This document shows positions 2,786 to 15,172 of a stretch of 45,220 nucleotides of DNA, one piece after another (within the stretch, counting starts at the first letter, position 1; each line of letters opens with the position of its first letter). The notes under the pieces were generated by a model. It saw nothing but the letters and a program-made list of their open reading frames with translations. It had not been told where the DNA came from and did no database searches. The translations under genes and the position numbers were made by a program. The stretch comes from Egibacteraceae bacterium (GTDB taxonomy: Bacteria; Actinomycetota; Nitriliruptoria; Euzebyales; Egibacteraceae), in assembly GCA_035540635.1 (NCBI GenBank), contig DATLGH010000012.1, positions 1 to 45,220 on the forward strand, given 5' to 3'.

Positions 2786-4377
2786 TATCGACGGCGGCGC
2801 GGGGCTCCTTGAGGCGAGCGCTGCGCGGCGGCTCCGTCGAGGAACGCCGGGACGAGCCACGCGACGAGTGCGACCGCTCCGGCGAGCGCGCCGACCACGA
2901 AGAGGGCCGGCCACGGCGACCAGGCGAGCACCGCGGCGCCCCGGGCCCCTGGCGGGCCCCAGTAGGTGACGAGCGCCAGGCCGGCCGCCGTGGCCTGCAC
3001 GACGACCACGACCGCGAGGGCGACGAACGGCAGGCGCCGGCTGCGCGCCCCCAGCAGGGTGAACGCGCCGAGGGCCCCGACGACCGCGATGCCGACCACG
3101 GCCCCGTACAGGTAGCGGCCGTGGATGGCGAACGGGGTGCCGGTGCGGGCGTAGACGCGCCAGGCCCCGAACGTCACGATCCCGCCGAGCCCGGCGAGTG
3201 GGGCGAGCACGACGGTGAGGTCGGCGGGGCTCTGACCGGTGCGCCGGCAGCCCGCGAACGCCGCGACGCAGAGCATGACGACGACGAGGGTGGCGAGCAG
3301 GTGCAGGGGCGGGGCACCGTCGGGGACGATGTTCGGCTCGATCCAGAAGCGGTGGCTCAGCCGCTCGACGTAGAAGGGCAGCCAGAAGCCGACGTCGGGG
3401 GTGAACCCCTCCGGTGCCGGCGGGCCCGGCAGGCCGGCCGGCTGCACGGTCCCGTGCACGACGAGATTGCGGATCCACCACCATCCGCCGACGGCGACGG
3501 CGGTGGCGACCGACAGCGCCCCGGCGGTCATCCCGCGCCAGCCGGCGCCCCGGAGCACGCCAAGCCCGTACACGGCGGCGAGCCATAGGGGGACGAACAG
3601 TGCGAAGCCCTTCGTGAGCAGCGCGAGCCCGCCGAGCAGGCCGGCGACGGCGGCGGTGCGCCAGGACCGGTCCCCGCGCGCGACGGCGAGGGTCGGCAGC
3701 GTGAGCAGGCCCAAGAGCAGCACGAGCAGGGTGTCGTTGTTGACCGACGCGCCGACGTGGGTGAGCTGCGGCACGCCGAGGGGCAGGACCGCCGCGGTCA
3801 CCGCGGCGGGGCGGGGCGCGCCGAGCCGGCCGGCGACGAGGTAGGCGATCAGCGGCAGGGGCAGCACGACGAGCGCGCTGAACAGCCGCAGGAAGCCCAC
3901 GACCTGATCGAAGGACCAGTCGCCGGTGAAGGGCACGACCGCGGTCACCCCCGACAGGGCCGCCGCGGCGAGGAGGTAGTAGAGCGGCGGGTGCGCGGCC
4001 ATCTGCTGGCGCACGTCGCCCGCCACGTCGGGGCCGAGGTCGGCGAACCTCGGCCGCTCGCCACGCGCCGGGGCGTCCGCGGCCCGCAGCGGCTGTGCCT
4101 CGCCCTCGCGGACGTGCCCGACCACGGCGAACGAGTCGATCACCCGCTGAGAGATCCGCCGCTGCCCCACCTCCGGGTAGCCGGCGCCCTGCGCGACGGC
4201 CACCACCATGTCGACGTGGGCGGACTCGTCCGGTGCCCGGTACGTCGGGAACAGCACGCTCGCGAGCACGAGGGTGAGTCCGTGGAGGGCGACGAGCGCC
4301 CGCACCGCGACGGGCACCCTGCCGAGCCCCCGGCGGGGCGCTGTGCCCCTCGGGGAGGCGCGGCCCTCGGCCCGCAC
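2785..4377 (-). CDS. multi-spanning membrane protein of the DUF2142 / GT-C type
   Basis: A 530-residue protein with roughly 11-13 hydrophobic segments. The first transmembrane segment is followed by FPTYRAPDESAHVDMV, the acidic first-loop motif typical of DUF2142 and related GT-C fold polyprenyl-phosphate-sugar transferases. A likely role is transfer of a sugar to a surface polymer on the outer face of the membrane, but no acceptor or donor can be deduced. The GTG start comes 10 nt after the stop of the upstream glycosyltransferase, with an AGGGG ribosome-binding site between, so the two are probably one operon. Alternative: an O-antigen-ligase-like or uncharacterised membrane protein. Confidence 0.8.
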   Translation of the reverse strand: MRAEGRASPRGTAPRRGLGRVPVAVRALVALHGLTLVLASVLFPTYRAPDESAHVDMVVAVAQGAGYPEVGQRRISQRVIDSFAVVGHVREGEAQPLRAADAPARGERPRFADLGPDVAGDVRQQMAAHPPLYYLLAAAALSGVTAVVPFTGDWSFDQVVGFLRLFSALVVLPLPLIAYLVAGRLGAPRPAAVTAAVLPLGVPQLTHVGASVNNDTLLVLLLGLLTLPTLAVARGDRSWRTAAVAGLLGGLALLTKGFALFVPLWLAAVYGLGVLRGAGWRGMTAGALSVATAVAVGGWWWIRNLVVHGTVQPAGLPGPPAPEGFTPDVGFWLPFYVERLSHRFWIEPNIVPDGAPPLHLLATLVVVMLCVAAFAGCRRTGQSPADLTVVLAPLAGLGGIVTFGAWRVYARTGTPFAIHGRYLYGAVVGIAVVGALGAFTLLGARSRRLPFVALAVVVVVQATAAGLALVTYWGPPGARGAAVLAWSPWPALFVVGALAGAVALVAWLVPAFLDGAAAQRSPQGAPRRRR

Positions 4378-4387
4378 GCGGCGACCC

Positions 4388-6889
4388 CTAGCGGCTGAGA
4401 CGCTGCCGCGCGAAGTTGCGCGCGTGGGTGAGAGCGGTGCGGGGTCCGGCGCTGCGGTAGTAGTCGAGGAAGCGCCGGGCGTAGTACCCGTAGGAGCGGG
4501 TGATGACGGGGGGTGCGCCGGTGACGTACTCCCGGGACCGTCCGACGCGGTCGGCAGCCGGCCGCGGAAGCCGGCAGAACTCCAGGATGGGCGCGAGCGC
4601 CTTGTCCCACGTCATGTCGGGAGCGAGCTGCTCCACCGCCTGTCGGCAGGTGTCGTAGAGGTCACGGTCGTTGCGCATGCGTCGCAGCGCGCTCGCGAGC
4701 GCGCCGACGTCCTCGCCGGGCACGGTGAGGCCGAGCCCGTGGGTGTTCACGAGCCGGGACAGCGAGTCGCCCTCGGTCGCCACGATCGGCAGCCCCGCCC
4801 AGAGGTAGTCGAGGATGCGGGTGCGGTAGCTGAACGCCGTCTCGACATGGTCGAAGTGCGTGGACACGCCGAGGTCCGCCTCGAGCAGGTAGTCGGCGCG
4901 CCGCTCGTACTCGACCCAGCCGGGGTTGAAGAACACGTGGCGGTCGAGCAGCCCGAGCTCCTCGGCGAGGCGGAAGGCGGCCGACGCCATCCGCATCTTC
5001 GGCACGTCGGGGTTCGGGTGCGCCGAGCCGAGGAAGAACAGCTTCATGTCGGGCAGGTCGGCGACGATCTCGCCGAGGGCGCGGATGAGCGTGAGCGGGT
5101 CGAACCAGTTGTAGATGCCCCCGCCCCACAGCAGCAGGAAGTCGTCCTCCCCCACGCCGTCGAGCACCCCCTTGACCACCTTGTCGACCTTCTCCGGCGG
5201 CTCGCTCGGCAGGCCGAAGGGGGCGACGTCGAGGAGCACGCGCATCGAGGCGTCGGCGTCGTAGGTGGCCGGGTTCACGCGGTTGACCCCCGTCAGCTGG
5301 CCGAGCCAGAAGTCGCGCTGCTTCTCGGACGCGCAGACGAAGAAGTCGCCGCGCGCGAGCTGCTCGTTGAGGATCTTCGTGTCGCTGCGCGCGGTCGCGA
5401 AGCGCTCGATCGGCGCCTCCTCGCGGCGCAGCTCCAGACCCTCGAGGTGGAAGGGGTCGTAGATGTCGACGAGGACGGGCACCTCCGACGCCGCGATCTG
5501 CGGGTAGAAGAACATGATGAAGCCCTGGAAGATCACGACGTCGGTGTCGGGCAGCAGCGCGTCGATGCGCTCGCTGTTGACCTGGACGACCTCGAAGTCG
5601 GGATGGGAGAGGTCCGGCGGTGTCGTCGTGCCAAGGGTCACCTGGTGCTCGCGGGACAGCAGCTTGGCCATCTCCCAGCAGCGGATCGCCGGCCCCGCCA
5701 TGCGCGCTCCCAAGCGGTCGGCGGTGAGGATGAGCACCCGCCCGCGTGGCTTCATGTGCGCGCGCAGGTTCCAGGCGTTCAGCACCGCCTCGAACACGTG
5801 CATGAAGTCGGGGTCGGGAACGTTGGGCAGCAGCGCCTCCTCGAACAGCCGCAGGATGCGGCGGTCGTCGGTCCGGCGGCGGGACTGCACGAAGTAGCGC
5901 TTCGCGCCGAGCTCGTCGAGGGCGAGGCCCCAGTCGCGGATGGCGGCGAGGTGCGCGCCGGTCAGCGCGGAGACGCGCGCATCGGCGATCGGGCGCGCGT
6001 CCTCGCTGATGCGGTAGTCCGGCAGGTCCGTCTTGTCGTCGGCGAGGCCGCGCAGCAGGGCGAGCACGAGCGTGCCGGGCAGCGTCCGCGCGAGCTGGTC
6101 GTCCCCGTAGTTCTTGAACACCGTGGCCAGGGCGTTGCGCTCGAGCAGGTAGCGCTCCCTCGCGTAGCCGAAGCGCTCGATGGTGCCATGGTGGCGGTGA
6201 TAGACCTTCGAGGCGGGGACGTAGACGACCTCGTGGCCGAGCACCCACAGCCGCCAGCCGTAGTCGACGTCCTCGAAGAAGGCGAAGTAGCTCTCGTCGA
6301 ACCCGCCGCTCTGCACGAACACGTCGCGGCGGGTGATCATCGCCCCGCCGGAGGCGAACAGCGTCGGGCGGTTGCGCCGGTCCTCGCCCATGTCGGTCTG
6401 GCGGTTGCCCTTCGCGAACCCGTGGCCGTAGAAGGCCATCTGCCCGCCGGCGTAGTCGATCGTCTCGCGGTCGTCGCGGAGGATCTTGCTCGCGACACAC
6501 GCGACCCGCTCATCGATCTCGAGCAGCTGCACCGCCTCGACGATCCAGCGGGGGTCGGCCTCGGCGTCGTTGTTGAGCAGCGCGATGTAGCGGCCTGTGG
6601 CGAGGCGCGCCCCCTGGTTGACCGCCGGGGAGAACCCCGTGTTCGTGTCGTTCACGACCACCCGGCACTCGGGGAACACCTCCCGGACGTACTCGAGGGA
6701 GCCGTCCTTGGAGTTGTTGTCGACGAAGACGACCTCGAGCCGCTCCTGGGGGTACTCGAGCGCCCGCAGGGACCCGAGGCACCGCTCGAGGAAGTCCCGC
6801 CCGTTGTAGTTCACGACGACGACCGACACCGTCGGCCATCGCCGCTCCGGCCACCGGGCGGGGGGCGTCGCGGCGGGGTCGACGGGCAT
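4388..6889 (-). CDS. two-domain glycosyltransferase, GT2 N-terminal and GT4-like C-terminal
   Basis: An 833-residue cytosolic enzyme. Residues 20-260 are a GT-A family 2 domain: VVVVNYNG, VDNNSKDGS (56-64), the metal-binding-type LLNNDAEAD (114-122) and FFEDVDYGWRL (204-214), as in rhamnosyl- and related sugar transferases. Residues about 383-800 are a GT-B, family-4-like domain beginning RVLILTADRLGARMAGPAIR and containing LWGGGIYNWFDP and the nucleotide-binding-side stretch WAGLPIVATEGDSLSRLV. The two halves probably add consecutive sugars to one glycan. The ATG has AGGAG 10 nt upstream. The following gene (DUF2142-like) begins 10 nt after its stop. Sugar specificity is unknown. Confidence 0.9.
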   Translation of the reverse strand: MPVDPAATPPARWPERRWPTVSVVVVNYNGRDFLERCLGSLRALEYPQERLEVVFVDNNSKDGSLEYVREVFPECRVVVNDTNTGFSPAVNQGARLATGRYIALLNNDAEADPRWIVEAVQLLEIDERVACVASKILRDDRETIDYAGGQMAFYGHGFAKGNRQTDMGEDRRNRPTLFASGGAMITRRDVFVQSGGFDESYFAFFEDVDYGWRLWVLGHEVVYVPASKVYHRHHGTIERFGYARERYLLERNALATVFKNYGDDQLARTLPGTLVLALLRGLADDKTDLPDYRISEDARPIADARVSALTGAHLAAIRDWGLALDELGAKRYFVQSRRRTDDRRILRLFEEALLPNVPDPDFMHVFEAVLNAWNLRAHMKPRGRVLILTADRLGARMAGPAIRCWEMAKLLSREHQVTLGTTTPPDLSHPDFEVVQVNSERIDALLPDTDVVIFQGFIMFFYPQIAASEVPVLVDIYDPFHLEGLELRREEAPIERFATARSDTKILNEQLARGDFFVCASEKQRDFWLGQLTGVNRVNPATYDADASMRVLLDVAPFGLPSEPPEKVDKVVKGVLDGVGEDDFLLLWGGGIYNWFDPLTLIRALGEIVADLPDMKLFFLGSAHPNPDVPKMRMASAAFRLAEELGLLDRHVFFNPGWVEYERRADYLLEADLGVSTHFDHVETAFSYRTRILDYLWAGLPIVATEGDSLSRLVNTHGLGLTVPGEDVGALASALRRMRNDRDLYDTCRQAVEQLAPDMTWDKALAPILEFCRLPRPAADRVGRSREYVTGAPPVITRSYGYYARRFLDYYRSAGPRTALTHARNFARQRLSR

Positions 6890-6972
6890 GGGCGAAAAGC
6901 TCCTGCGGTTCTTGCGTGCCGGGTCGTGTTGTCTACCACACCTGGGTCAGGGCTCCCGACGGTGCGCTGCGC

Positions 6973-6978
6973 TAGCGT
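6973..6978 (+). promoter_or_regulatory. putative -10 element giving a leaderless mRNA
   Basis: TAGCGT, separated by 7 nt from the ATG at 6986. Transcription would start at or next to the start codon, and no ribosome-binding site precedes it. Confidence 0.45.
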
Positions 6979-6985
6979 GACCCGC

Positions 6986-7708
6986 ATGCGGATCGGTGTG
7001 GCGGCGCTCCTCCTCGTCGGCGCGCTCATGGTGGGCGGCTGTCAGGCGGCGAGCGGCGAGGCCTTCCAGCACTCGTTCAACCAGCCGATCATGCTCGGCG
7101 ATAAGCCGGTCGGGCAGACGTTCCGCCCGGCCACGAGCCATGTCGCCGGCGTCGACGTCCTCGTGGCGACCTTCGACGAGACCGTCGACCCCGCCGGCCG
7201 TCTCCGCGCCGTCCTGCGCGACGGCGCCGGCGGGCCCGTCCTGGCCCGGACGTCCGTGGACGGCGCGGACATCGGCAACAACGAGTGGGCGCCCGTGCGC
7301 TTCTCCCCCCCGCCGCCCGCGCCGGCGGTCGCCGCCGTCGAGCTCACGTGGGACGGGGCGAGCCCGCTCGCGGTCTGGGCGAACACGCCCCTCGACGACG
7401 GCGGTGGCCTGCGCAACGACCCCTACCCGGGAGGCGAGCTGGTGCGCGGCGGCGAACCGGCGGTCGGCGACCTCGCGTTCCGGGTGGTCGGCACGGGGAG
7501 CCCGGCGGACGCGGCCCGCAACCTTCTCCGCATCGCGCGCGACGGTGCGAGCCGGCTAGCGGGCGACCCGCTGTTTGCGGCTCTGTGGCTCGTGCTGGTC
7601 GGCGGGGCGGTGTGGCTCGGGGTGGGCAACCTGCGGCGCCCGCCCGGCGAGCTCGGCGAGCGCCGGCGCGGCGAGCAGCCCCGTGAGCACGAGGAAGCCC
7701 GTCCGTAG
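6986..7708 (+). CDS. lipoprotein of unknown function with C-terminal membrane segment
   Basis: A 240-residue protein I do not recognise. The N-terminus MRIGVAALLLVGALMVGGC is a lipoprotein signal with Cys19 as the lipid site. Residues 20-165 look beta-rich (GQTFRPATSHVAGVDVLVATF and alternating hydrophobic strands), reminiscent of a galactose-binding-like sandwich, but I cannot assign a family. A hydrophobic segment near residues 195-215 (FAALWLVLVGGAVWLGVG) followed by Arg-Arg would be a second membrane anchor. It is divergent from the GT2-GT4 gene. Its last 153 bp overlap the end of the opposite-strand GT-C-like gene. The ATG is preferred to a GTG nine bases upstream because that GTG overlaps the promoter hexamer. 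Confidence 0.75.
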   Translation: MRIGVAALLLVGALMVGGCQAASGEAFQHSFNQPIMLGDKPVGQTFRPATSHVAGVDVLVATFDETVDPAGRLRAVLRDGAGGPVLARTSVDGADIGNNEWAPVRFSPPPPAPAVAAVELTWDGASPLAVWANTPLDDGGGLRNDPYPGGELVRGGEPAVGDLAFRVVGTGSPADAARNLLRIARDGASRLAGDPLFAALWLVLVGGAVWLGVGNLRRPPGELGERRRGEQPREHEEARP

Positions 7709-8983
7709 AACGCCGATGAGCTGCTCGGTGAGCGCACGGGAGTTGAGCAGGAGCTCGCGGAGGCTCGGCAGCTCGGTCGCCGCCACGGGCGACAGGGGCT
7801 GGAAGAGCCCGAGCACCGTCCGGGGCCCGTTCACCAGGTCGCTGATCGCGAGGATGGTGACGACCTGCAGGAGATGGAGCGCGAGCACGCCCCGCCACCG
7901 GGGCCTGCGCGCGAGCGCGAGCGCCACGAACGGCGTGAACCACATGAAGTAGTGGGCCGAGAAGGTCGCGAGGGCGAAGAACGCCGCGTGGACGACGAGC
8001 AGCCACACCCACAGCTCGCCGACCCGGACCGCGCCGGCGCCCCACCAGCCGGCGGACCGCCCGAGCAGGTAGCCGTACACGGCGAGGACCGCGGCGAGCA
8101 TGAGGTAGATGTCCCCGGCTCCCTGGACAGGCAGCGTCAACGCGAGGAAGGCATCGCCCGGGGCGATGTCGCGCAGGCGGGCGAGCTCGCCGGCGGTGCC
8201 GCCGAGGATCCGGTTCGTCACCATCGTGAGCGCGAAGGGCAGGAGCGCGAGGCCCGCCCACGCGCCCTGCCGGCGCCAGCCCCGCACGGCGACGAGGGCG
8301 AAGACCGGGACGAGCAGGAGCGGGTAGGTGCGCGTGGTGACCGCCAGTCCGAGCAGCAGCGCCCCCGTCCAGGGCCGCCGGCGCTCGCACGCGAGCAGCG
8401 CGCCGAGCACGAGCGCGACGGGGAAGGCCTCGTAGCGGGCGAACAGGTAGGTCGCGTAGAGCCCGATCGGGGAGAGCATCCAGAATGCCCACGCACGCCG
8501 GATCGCCTGCGGCCTCCCGGCGGCGACGAGAGAGAGCAGGAGCAGGCCGGCGGCGAGGTCGAACGCGAGGTAGGGCAGCTTGAGCACGAAAAGCGTCGAG
8601 AAGACGTCCGAGGACGTGGCGAACTCCCGTGTCACCTGCGTCTGCAGCCCACCGGAGTCACCCCACCACCAGGGGTCGGTCCAGACCGCGGCGGGCGGCG
8701 GCAGGAGCGGCCCGAGCAGCCGCAGGGCGAGCGCGTGGACATAGTGCGCGCCCATGTTGACGAGGTAGGACCCGAACAGCTGCCCCTCGTAGGCGATGAG
8801 GTGGGCACGCCAGTAGACGGCGAGCAGGTCGCTGTGGAACGCGAACGGCATCACCGCGAAACGCACGGCCAGGCCGACCCCGAGCCAGCCGAGCAGCGGG
8901 CGGCGCAGCACCGGGTCACGCAGGGGGGCTGGCAGCAGCCGCGAGATCGCCGGGACCCTACCGCTGCGCTGCTTGAGGGTCAT
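7556..8983 (-). CDS. multi-spanning GT-C-like mannosyltransferase-type membrane protein
   Basis: A 475-residue protein with about ten transmembrane segments, an early HSDLLAVYWRAH loop containing an acidic residue, WTDPWWWGDSGG and a YLFARYEAFPVALVLG stretch, the general build of GT-C polyprenyl-phosphate-sugar-dependent transferases (GT87/PIG-M-like). It probably adds a sugar to a lipid-linked or cell-wall glycan on the outer side of the membrane. The C-terminal 35 residues (from about AGRAPQVAHPEPHRP) lose hydrophobicity and overlap, on the opposite strand, the lipoprotein gene. The ATG overlaps the stop of a 12-codon mini-ORF (ATGA) and also has its own TAGGGT hexamer 6 nt upstream, so either coupled or leaderless initiation is possible. 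Confidence 0.82.
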   Translation of the reverse strand: MTLKQRSGRVPAISRLLPAPLRDPVLRRPLLGWLGVGLAVRFAVMPFAFHSDLLAVYWRAHLIAYEGQLFGSYLVNMGAHYVHALALRLLGPLLPPPAAVWTDPWWWGDSGGLQTQVTREFATSSDVFSTLFVLKLPYLAFDLAAGLLLLSLVAAGRPQAIRRAWAFWMLSPIGLYATYLFARYEAFPVALVLGALLACERRRPWTGALLLGLAVTTRTYPLLLVPVFALVAVRGWRRQGAWAGLALLPFALTMVTNRILGGTAGELARLRDIAPGDAFLALTLPVQGAGDIYLMLAAVLAVYGYLLGRSAGWWGAGAVRVGELWVWLLVVHAAFFALATFSAHYFMWFTPFVALALARRPRWRGVLALHLLQVVTILAISDLVNGPRTVLGLFQPLSPVAATELPSLRELLLNSRALTEQLIGVLRTGFLVLTGLLAAPALAELAGRAPQVAHPEPHRPADQHEPQSRKQRVAR

Positions 8984-9018
8984 TCGGGGACCCTACCGCT
9001 GCGCTGCTCGAGGGTCAT
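8980..9018 (-). CDS. 12-codon leader ORF overlapping the GT-C-like gene by ATGA
   Basis: The frame encodes MTLEQRSGRVPE then TGA; the stop overlaps the ATG at 8983. A TACACT hexamer (9026-9031) lies 7 nt before its own ATG, so it would be translated as a leaderless peptide, and the ribosome could restart at the overlapping ATG. It arises from the 35-bp duplication: its sequence repeats the first codons of the downstream gene. Either a true coupling leader or simply the duplicated former start; no homologue known to me. Confidence 0.35.
   Translation of the reverse strand: MTLEQRSGRVPE
8990..8995 (-). promoter_or_regulatory. putative -10 element, 6 nt before the GT-C-like gene ATG
   Basis: TAGGGT on the minus strand, inside the upstream copy of the 35-bp duplication. 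The same hexamer at the same 6-nt distance precedes rarA. Confidence 0.4.
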
Positions 9019-9025
9019 ACGCGTC

Positions 9026-9031
9026 AGTGTA
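9026..9031 (-). promoter_or_regulatory. putative -10 element for the 12-codon leader ORF
   Basis: TACACT on the minus strand, 7 nt before the mini-ORF ATG at 9018. It lies back to back with the plus-strand hexamer at 9041-9046, so the two divergent promoters would overlap. Confidence 0.35.
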
Positions 9032-9052: not shown

Positions 9053-10000
9053 ATGCAGCCCTACCTGTCGGCCGTCGTGCCGGTCTACGACGAGGTCGAG
9101 GCGCTGCCGCAGCTCCACGCCGAGCTCGTCACCGCTCTCGAGATGCTCGACCGTCCGAGCGAGATCGTCTACGTCGACGACGGTTCCACGGACGGGTCGA
9201 CCGAGCTGCTCCACAAGCTCCAGCTCGAGCGGCCCGAGCTCGTGCGGGTCGTCGTCCTCCGGCGCAACTTCGGGAAGTCAGGAGCCCTCGCGGCGGGGTT
9301 CGACGCCGCCCGAGGCGAGCTCTACGTCACCCTCGACGCCGACGGCCAGGACGTGCCCGACGAGATCCGCGCGCTGCTCGCCCGTGTCGAGAGGGACGGC
9401 TACGACCTCGTCGGAGGGTGGCGGCGCGAGCGCGACGACCGCGTCGTGAAACGGCTCACGTCCCGGTGGTACAACGCCGCGACCCGGGCGCTGACCGGGC
9501 TCGACCTGCACGACTTCAACACCGGGTTCAAGCTCCTGCGGGCGGAGGTGGCCGAGGAGCTGCCGCTGTACGGCGAGTTCCACCGCTTCGTGCCGGTGCT
9601 CGCCCACGACCTCGGGTTCCGGGTGACCGAGGTCGCGGTGCGCCACCGCGCCCGCACCGCCGGCAGGAGCAAGTTCCTGTCCGTCCTGCGGTTCCCGAAG
9701 ACGCTGCTCGACCTCATGACGGTGCTGTTCCTCACCCGCTTCGCCGACCGACCGCTCTACCTGTTCGGGGGTGTCGGGGCGGCGCTGTCGCTCATCGGTT
9801 TCACCGTGCTCGCCTACCTGTCGGGCATCTGGCTCTTCACCGACCAGGGCATCGGCAACCGGCCACTGCTGCTGTTCGGTGTGCTGTGCGTGCTCGTCGG
9901 GGTGCAGCTCATCGGCACGGGCTTCATCGGCGACGTGCTGCGGCACACCGGCGCCCGGGACCGCCGGCCCTACCGGGTCCGCGAGATCCTCGAAGACTGA
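9053..10000 (+). CDS. polyprenyl-phosphate glycosyltransferase, family 2 (DPM1/ArnC-like)
   Basis: A 315-residue enzyme predicted to transfer a sugar from a nucleotide donor to a polyprenyl phosphate on the cytosolic face. Residues 5-220 are a GT2 domain: VVPVYDEVE, VDDGSTDGS (41-49), RRNFGKSGALAAGFD (71-85), LDADGQDVP (94-102) and DFNTGFKLLR. Two C-terminal transmembrane segments (about 230-258 and 268-292) are as in ArnC/GtrB-type proteins. The product could feed the neighbouring GT-C-like membrane transferase. It starts at a leaderless-type ATG and is followed after 16 bp by a GT4 gene, probably one operon. Confidence 0.92.
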   Translation: MQPYLSAVVPVYDEVEALPQLHAELVTALEMLDRPSEIVYVDDGSTDGSTELLHKLQLERPELVRVVVLRRNFGKSGALAAGFDAARGELYVTLDADGQDVPDEIRALLARVERDGYDLVGGWRRERDDRVVKRLTSRWYNAATRALTGLDLHDFNTGFKLLRAEVAEELPLYGEFHRFVPVLAHDLGFRVTEVAVRHRARTAGRSKFLSVLRFPKTLLDLMTVLFLTRFADRPLYLFGGVGAALSLIGFTVLAYLSGIWLFTDQGIGNRPLLLFGVLCVLVGVQLIGTGFIGDVLRHTGARDRRPYRVREILED

Positions 10001-13852: not shown

Positions 13853-15172
13853 TCACCGTTCGGGATCGTCCTCCCGGTCTGCACGCCAGCGGGCGAGGTC
13901 AGGCTCGCGGCCGTGGGGGCCGGGCTCGTAGAGCCGTCCGACGCCCTCCGGGGCGTAGGGCTGGGGTACCCAGCCACGCGGGTCGTCGTGGGGGTAGCGG
14001 TAGCCGGCACCGTGCCCGAGCCGGGCAGCGCCGCGGTAGTGCGCGTCGCGCAGGTGCGCGGGCACGGGAGCGTTGCCGAGACGGGCCACCGCCTCGCCGG
14101 CTGCCGCAAGGGCACGGGTGACGCGGTTGGACTTCGGGGCCAGCGCCAGGTAGATCGCCGCCTCGGCGAGGGCGTAGCGCGCCTCGGGCAGCCCGACGAA
14201 CTCGAGCGCGTGGAAGGCCGCGACGGCCACCTGCAGCGCCTGCGGGTCAGCGAGGCCGACGTCCTCGCCGGCGAGGACGACCATCCGCCGGGCGAGGAAC
14301 CGGGGGTCCTCACCGGCGGTGAGCATCCGCACGAGCCAGTAGACCGCCGCGTCGGGATCCGACCCGCGCAGGGACTTGATGAACGCGCTCACCTGGTCGT
14401 AGTGGTTGTCGGCGGACTTGTCGTAGCGCAGGTGCGGATTGGCCAGCGCCGTGCGCACCGCGCCGGCCGTCACGGGGTCCCCGAGGGCGGCGGCGGTCTC
14501 GAGGCCGGTCAGGGCCACGCGCGCGTCGCCGTCGGCCGCGGCGACGAGGGCGTCGAGCGCCTCGGGCTCCACCGTCACGCCGGGCAGCCCCCGCTCGTCG
14601 CTGACGGCGCGGCCGAGGAGCACCCGGATGTCCTCGCCGTCGAGGGGCTCGAGCCGGTAGAGCAGGCTTCGGGACAGCAGCGGCGCGTTCACCTCGAAGT
14701 AGGGGTTCTCCGTCGTCGCACCGATGAGCACGACCGCGCCGTCCTCGACGCCCGGCAGCAGCGCGTCCTGCTGGGACTTGTTGAACCGGTGGATCTCGTC
14801 GACGAACAGCACGCTGCGCCGACCGGCATGCGCCCGCCGTGTGCGGGCCTCCTCGACGACACGGCGCACGTCCTTCACCCCGGCGGTGACGGCGGACAGC
14901 TCGACGAACGCGGCTTTCGTCGAGGCGGCGACGACGTGGGCGAGGCTCGTCTTGCCGGTTCCCGGCGGTCCCCAGAGCAGCACGCTGCGGATCTCGTCGG
15001 CTTCGACGGCGGCCCGCAACGGTCCCCCCGGACCCACGAGATGACGCTGCCCGACGACCGCGTCGAGGGTGCGGGGACGAAGGCGGGCGGCCAGCGGCTC
15101 ACCCGGCAGCGGGCCCTGCGGCCCGGCCGGGGGCGGGGCGGTCCCCGGGTCGTCGAAGAGCCGATCGCTCAC
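13853..15172 (-). CDS. rarA: replication-associated recombination protein A (RarA/MgsA), AAA+ ATPase
   Basis: A 439-residue clamp-loader-like ATPase that acts at stalled replication forks. The sequence has GQRHLVGPGG, Walker A GPPGTGKT (68-75), Walker B VLFVDEIH (121-128) followed by RFNKSQQD, sensor 1 IGATTENP, and the conserved LLSRSLLYRLEPL arginine-finger region; the C-terminal half matches the tetramerisation domain (YDQVSAFIKSLRGSDPDAAVYWL). Length is normal. The start is GTG with TAGGGT 6 nt upstream and no ribosome-binding site, suggesting a leaderless message. It sits between manB-like and wbbL-like genes and has no functional link to them that I can see. Confidence 0.96.
   Translation of the reverse strand: MSDRLFDDPGTAPPPAGPQGPLPGEPLAARLRPRTLDAVVGQRHLVGPGGPLRAAVEADEIRSVLLWGPPGTGKTSLAHVVAASTKAAFVELSAVTAGVKDVRRVVEEARTRRAHAGRRSVLFVDEIHRFNKSQQDALLPGVEDGAVVLIGATTENPYFEVNAPLLSRSLLYRLEPLDGEDIRVLLGRAVSDERGLPGVTVEPEALDALVAAADGDARVALTGLETAAALGDPVTAGAVRTALANPHLRYDKSADNHYDQVSAFIKSLRGSDPDAAVYWLVRMLTAGEDPRFLARRMVVLAGEDVGLADPQALQVAVAAFHALEFVGLPEARYALAEAAIYLALAPKSNRVTRALAAAGEAVARLGNAPVPAHLRDAHYRGAARLGHGAGYRYPHDDPRGWVPQPYAPEGVGRLYEPGPHGREPDLARWRADREDDPER

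Follow-up and report, generated by a model that had tools for sequence, protein, structure and literature searches.

The gene for a GT87-family membrane glycosyltransferase (475 aa, minus strand, 7556..8983) begins inside two near-identical copies of a 35-bp sequence in the 45,220-nucleotide stretch of DNA analysed here (the window), raising the questions of where these copies came from and from which start the gene is now read. In keeping with the preliminary description the copies lie at 8952-8986 and 8987-9021 (33/35 identical, 94%, spacing 35), forming a minus-strand two-unit array (8952..9021) whose Tandem Repeats Finder score of 127 far exceeds that of any other repeat in the window, the second-ranked one scoring 56. 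In the sense of the GT87 mRNA the upstream copy holds hairpin unit 1 (8989..9016, minus strand, GACCCTCGAGCAGCGCAGCGGTAGGGTC), with the outer stem GACCCT/AGGGTC, the bulge CGA and the GNA-type loop GCA, while the downstream copy holds hairpin unit 2 (8954..8981, minus strand, GACCCTCAAGCAGCGCAGCGGTAGGGTC), which codes for the beginning of the GT87 N-terminus, the two hairpins being separated by the spacer CCCCGAAT. A 12-codon ORF encoding MTLEQRSGRVPE (8980..9018, minus strand) opens at the ATG at 9018-9016 with its TGA (8982-8980) overlapping the GT87 ATG at 8983-8981 as ATGA. Two -10-like boxes stand on the same strand, TACACT (9026..9031) 7 nt before the ATG at 9018 and TAGGGT (8990..8995) within unit 1, 6 nt before the ATG at 8983, the latter generated where the end of the repeat core (GGTAG) joins the array's own arm (GGTC). 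Both boxes and the overlapping ORF had been claimed beforehand and are present at these positions, the start region reading in gene sense TACACT-GACGCGT-ATG-ACCCTCGAGCAGCGCAGCGGTAGGGTCCCCGA-ATG-ACCCTCAAGCAGCGCAGCGGTAGGGTCCCGGCG. The GT87 residues MTLKQRSGRVP are encoded by the repeat. Divergent from GT87 is a GT2 glycosyltransferase gene (plus strand, 9053..10000) with a leaderless-type start of its own, TAGCCT-N6-ATG. Elsewhere in the window a 1166-codon open frame (4208-7708, plus strand) runs antisense to a GT2/GT4 gene, and codon statistics mark it as a high-G+C by-product rather than a gene.

The copies are units of a repeat family. Each unit, read in mRNA sense, is an imperfect hairpin of 26 nt with the form N3-CTCNNGYAGCGNAGCGGTAG-N3', that is N3-CTC-NN-GYAGC-GNA-GCGGTAG-N3, with a 5-bp outer stem, a 3-nt 5' bulge, an inner stem and a GNA loop, the repeat hairpin sequence being CUCAAGUAGCGAAGCGGUAG. 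Structure was examined in 129 arrays from Actinomycetota (Nitriliruptorales, Euzebyaceae) and Alphaproteobacteria, collected with a pattern from which the outer arms were absent. Three of the five outer base pairs are variable and covary; first units have Watson-Crick pairs at these three positions in 91, 84 and 77% of cases compared to 47, 35 and 52% with arms shuffled among loci, and 19 distinct complementary arm triplets were found across the arrays. Pairs of the inner stem covary too: among 410 units one of them is G-T in 380, A-T in 15 and G-C in 11, and the next T-G in 220, C-G in 165, T-A in 15 and C-A in three, with the A-G mismatch, two G-C pairs and the GNA loop near-invariant and all four bases occurring at the loop N. 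The G-T and T-G wobble pairs occur on the mRNA-sense strand only, which points to this as the strand that folds. As RNA the hairpins are predicted to fold with modest energies (z about -0.3 to -2.4), and in arrays with unequal arms the within-unit and across-spacer outer stems showed no difference, such that the outer arms cannot separate these two pairings. Rfam 15 gave no match at gathering threshold in the window or seven loci, with nothing overlapping the array at E values up to 1. A CRISPR array was considered and rejected, since the spacers of any one array resemble each other and what is conserved is a 20-nt core.

The host genome (G000, Nitriliruptorales) holds ten further unit matches besides the GT87 locus. 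Its 13-nt core, ACCGCTKCGCTRC, occurs 47 times against two occurrences of the reversed control pattern, and the 20-nt form (with at most one mismatch) gives 41 units against none for reversed controls. A two-unit array before coaD on contig C45 is 63/65 identical (97%) to the GT87 array with the spacer included, the identity stopping at the array edges. This array (L002, 1480-1590; C45:73700-73800) is located between the end of an rsmD-like gene and the start of coaD, and its last unit ends on TAGGGT, a hexamer that already precedes coaD in the sister species G001. Between conserved flanks the coaD locus measures about 80 bp in the host genome and 10 in G001, which has no array there, and it gives a cleaner comparison with G001 than GT87 does. 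The longest array seen in the host genome has six units with arms GACAT/ATGTC and lies in a flagellar region (fliH/fliG-like; L028, 1490-1710; contig C37:3590-3790).

Beyond the host genome, nine of the 21 genomes searched by DNA similarity (the host and 20 relatives) carry the repeat, and a scan of species genomes, which itself required head-to-tail core pairs, found at least 118 stretches with two cores 29-39 nt apart. Carriers among the matches listed are Nitriliruptorales, Euzebyaceae and many Alphaproteobacteria. The tandem form is present in isolates, including Erythrobacter longus, E. tepidarius, Altererythrobacter xiamenensis and Asticcacaulis biprosthecium as well as Roseobacter isolates. 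A few matches fell in Kitasatospora, Brevibacterium, a Bacteroidia and a cyanobacterial record, with flanks that look unrelated; plasmid records gave matches in Alphaproteobacteria and phage records no convincing match to the repeat. Copy number is patchy, with 41 units in the host genome and about 100 in one Euzebyaceae and one Robiginitomaculum genome, while G001 has four mismatched units and five other family members have none. A diverged two-unit array with core CTGCCGCTTCGCTAC... and arms GCG/CGC is present in G001 (L209, 150-215; contig C165, near 61067), so judging from the sequences the repeat family was probably already in the common ancestor of the genus.

Arrays run head to tail with a spacing of mostly 33-36 bp. 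Neighbouring units within an array are near copies, spacer included, and the flank of the first unit resembles the spacer for about 11 nt on one side only; arrays therefore appear to grow by local duplication of units. In orthologous arrays of sister species the arms are kept while unit number and core variant differ. The orthologous arrays L284 and L277 (genus g13, genomes G019 and G015), which share the same arms, differ between the species in core variant and spacer and are uniform inside each array, as if each had been homogenised or re-amplified as a block. The idea that core variants are homogenised across the loci of one genome, prompted by L284 and L318, was not borne out by counts. 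Copying of the arms from the target site, suggested by the GGGTC already standing at GT87 and coaD in G001, was set aside because arms are typical of a genome (GAC in genus g13, GCG in the host).

With respect to genes, arrays lying between tandem gene pairs are in mRNA-sense orientation in 47 cases and in the opposite orientation in 11 (p = 2e-6). In 64 cases the upstream gene reads toward the array; the median distance to its stop codon is 5.5 nt, and for 41 of the 64 a sense-oriented hairpin stands within 15 nt of that stop. Twelve of the 129 arrays lie inside a called ORF, the gene calls coming from a simple codon-model script that left 32 arrays with no called neighbour. The GT87 array is atypical in this respect as it is located on a start rather than behind a stop. 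In E. coli, REPs are reported to lower translation when they stand less than 16 nt from a stop codon (PMC12306157), and by analogy such stop-proximal REPs may serve as a model for the function of the arrays described here.

What the array did to GT87 can be approached through the relatives. G001 (78% protein identity) has the same divergent GT2/GT87 pair, homology between the GT87 proteins beginning at residue 7 of the host one; the G001 start reads CCTACACTGACCCG-GTG-AGCGCACGGGTCCCC (protein MSARVPFLRRLLPAPLRD), with a leaderless GTG 6 nt past the same TACACT (TACACT-GACCCG-GTG). GT87 of two further relatives, G004 (TATGCT, gap 7) and G008 (TAGCCT, gap 8), also appears leaderless, and the claim that the ancestral start was of this kind thus gains support. 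The start region is 51 bp longer in the host genome than in G001, where there is no array and not even one intact unit; a GACCC..GGGTC pair at the G001 site might mark a single unit that has decayed instead of an empty site. As G001 keeps the TACACT and has no array, it follows that the array gave GT87 a new start and a new N-terminus, with the old start position now belonging to an out-of-frame ORF.

Given the ATGA overlap and the conserved TACACT, the resulting region holds a promoter-like box followed by a short ORF that runs into the main start. The proposed leader ORF with two stacked promoters fits this anatomy and would plausibly be a local consequence of the array. Four of the 36 predicted starts in the window carry a TANNNT box separated from the start codon by exactly 6 nt, including GCGGTAGGGTCCCCTC-GTG at 15172, and the layout is also found at coaD of G001. 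The start at 15172 belongs to a gene for a RarA/MgsA-like AAA ATPase (13853-15172, minus strand) that has no repeat array. As this start shares the lower GT87 box and its context, GCGGTAGGGTCCCC is suggested to be a common leaderless promoter context in the host genome. With the TANNNT-gap-6 layout recurring at other starts, the ATG at 8983 could be reached either on a new leaderless transcript for which the TAGGGT in unit 1 serves as promoter box, or through the ATGA overlap by termination-reinitiation; the former appears slightly more likely, as this genome evidently makes use of leaderless starts.

Taken together, these observations make it probable that the two copies at GT87 are an array of a dispersed, tandemly arranged hairpin repeat that sits REP-like at 3' ends and has here been displaced. 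Placement and covariation suggest that the repeats are transcribed and act as hairpins at 3' ends, where they may tune how the upstream message is terminated, translated or degraded. The GT87 array would then be a displaced copy with a side effect, lying on the ancestral leaderless start such that the old start position now opens the 12-codon ORF and the gene is presumably read from the ATG at 8983. The preliminary description saw instead a recent duplication at this site. Local unit duplication can indeed be part of the origin, the neighbouring units being near copies, but at most part of it, and a private origin is contradicted by the dispersed family and the coaD array. In its strict form, a private recent 35-bp slippage at the start codon unrelated to other loci and creating both leader ORF and second promoter, that account has become improbable: local growth, the spacer-like first flank and the mere two differences between the GT87 copies agree with it, but the unit recurs genome-wide and in two phyla, the same two units and spacer stand before coaD, and G001 lacks even one intact unit at GT87. 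Still less credible is a false array produced during assembly: the host genome, derived from a metagenome, is in 110 contigs, but the same tandem form occurs in isolate genomes and the two GT87 copies differ.

How the family spread bears on the remaining alternatives. That the family is a classical REP/BIME mobilised by a Y1 transposase (RAYT) is very unlikely. The family does consist of short extragenic palindromes, in high copy, patchy among congeners, behind stop codons and with GTAG at the end of the core, but Y1_Tnp (PF01797, RAYT) is missing from the host genome and was found in one of 24 repeat-carrying genomes, some of them incomplete assemblies; in addition this GTAG is no free tag, its AG being paired in the stem, and head-to-tail arrays are rare among REPs (PMC3733652). 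The single Y1_Tnp was observed in an Emcibacter sp. genome (G036, L200). A mobile element spread by some other enzyme and having no selected function at 3' ends, with the stop-codon bias reflecting tolerated insertion sites, is a possibility, if a doubtful one. It would account for the patchy copy number between sister species with lineage-specific gains or losses, for arms typical of a genome and for one array copied between two loci, and the pairing could likewise be due to an enzyme whose substrate is a folded single strand. The orientation bias, the clustering at stop codons and the strand-specific wobble nevertheless exceed what tolerance predicts, and favour a transcribed 3'-end hairpin.

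A broader proposal can be advanced tentatively, namely that these repeats might be an undescribed class of tandem RNA hairpins in which the bulge and GNA-capped head are read by a dedicated protein, which act behind stop codons in Nitriliruptoria and Alphaproteobacteria in a common post-transcriptional control, which spread without RAYT, and one of which has become a start-site switch at GT87. The dispersed tandem-hairpin family is apparently undescribed so far, with no description of the repeat or its sequence found in the searchable literature, a scope mostly outside subscription journals. If the interpretation as a dispersed hairpin family is right, two phyla harbour a so far unnoticed repeat family whose covariation is strong and of the RNA type, its REP-like placement in the absence of tag or transposase makes the mode of spreading and the reader of the conserved head directly testable, and GT87 clearly exemplifies a repeat that rewrote a gene's start and N-terminus in one of two congeneric species.

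Among known systems the REP GTAG and CGTC super-families are the closest, being 20-40 bp imperfect palindromes in many copies, mostly intergenic and behind coding regions, with wobble pairs suggesting RNA, compensatory stem changes, and dimers that are mainly inverted and rarely head to tail (Di Nocera et al., 2013; PMC3733652). The present repeat is alike in size, copy number, placement, wobble pairs and compensatory stem changes, and is likewise a short palindrome in many copies largely outside genes, as the 41 units of the host genome and the few arrays within ORFs attest. It differs in having no unpaired terminal GTAG or CGTC tag, the AG of the core GTAG being part of the outer stem that covaries, in lacking a RAYT in 23 of the 24 carriers, and in having a conserved head (bulge, A-G mismatch and GNA loop) with variable arms, and nearly always a head-to-tail tandem form of period 33-36 in place of inverted dimers, although the scan asked for head-to-tail pairs. 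With the free tag, inverted dimers and transposase missing, the repeat resembles REPs in placement but does not belong to them. The stop-proximal, ribosome-stalling REPs of E. coli, in the summary given by PMC12306157, share the hairpin within 15 nt behind the upstream stop. The repeat described here is unrelated to them in sequence, forms tandem arrays and belongs to other phyla.

GNA-triloop mini-hairpins, d(GCGNAGC), have mostly been described in DNA, as a short and stable motif. The GCGAAGC form has been used in aptamers (PMC4686876). The invariant head of the unit is likewise GC-GNA-GC with all four bases at N, differing in being the head of a larger bulged hairpin that is probably RNA. 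Leaderless starts whose -10 box (TANNNT) lies 6-7 nt ahead of the start codon are known in actinobacteria. This layout is common to GT87 of the relatives, GT2, coaD and the RarA-like gene, while at GT87 of the host genome the array separates the old start from the reading frame.
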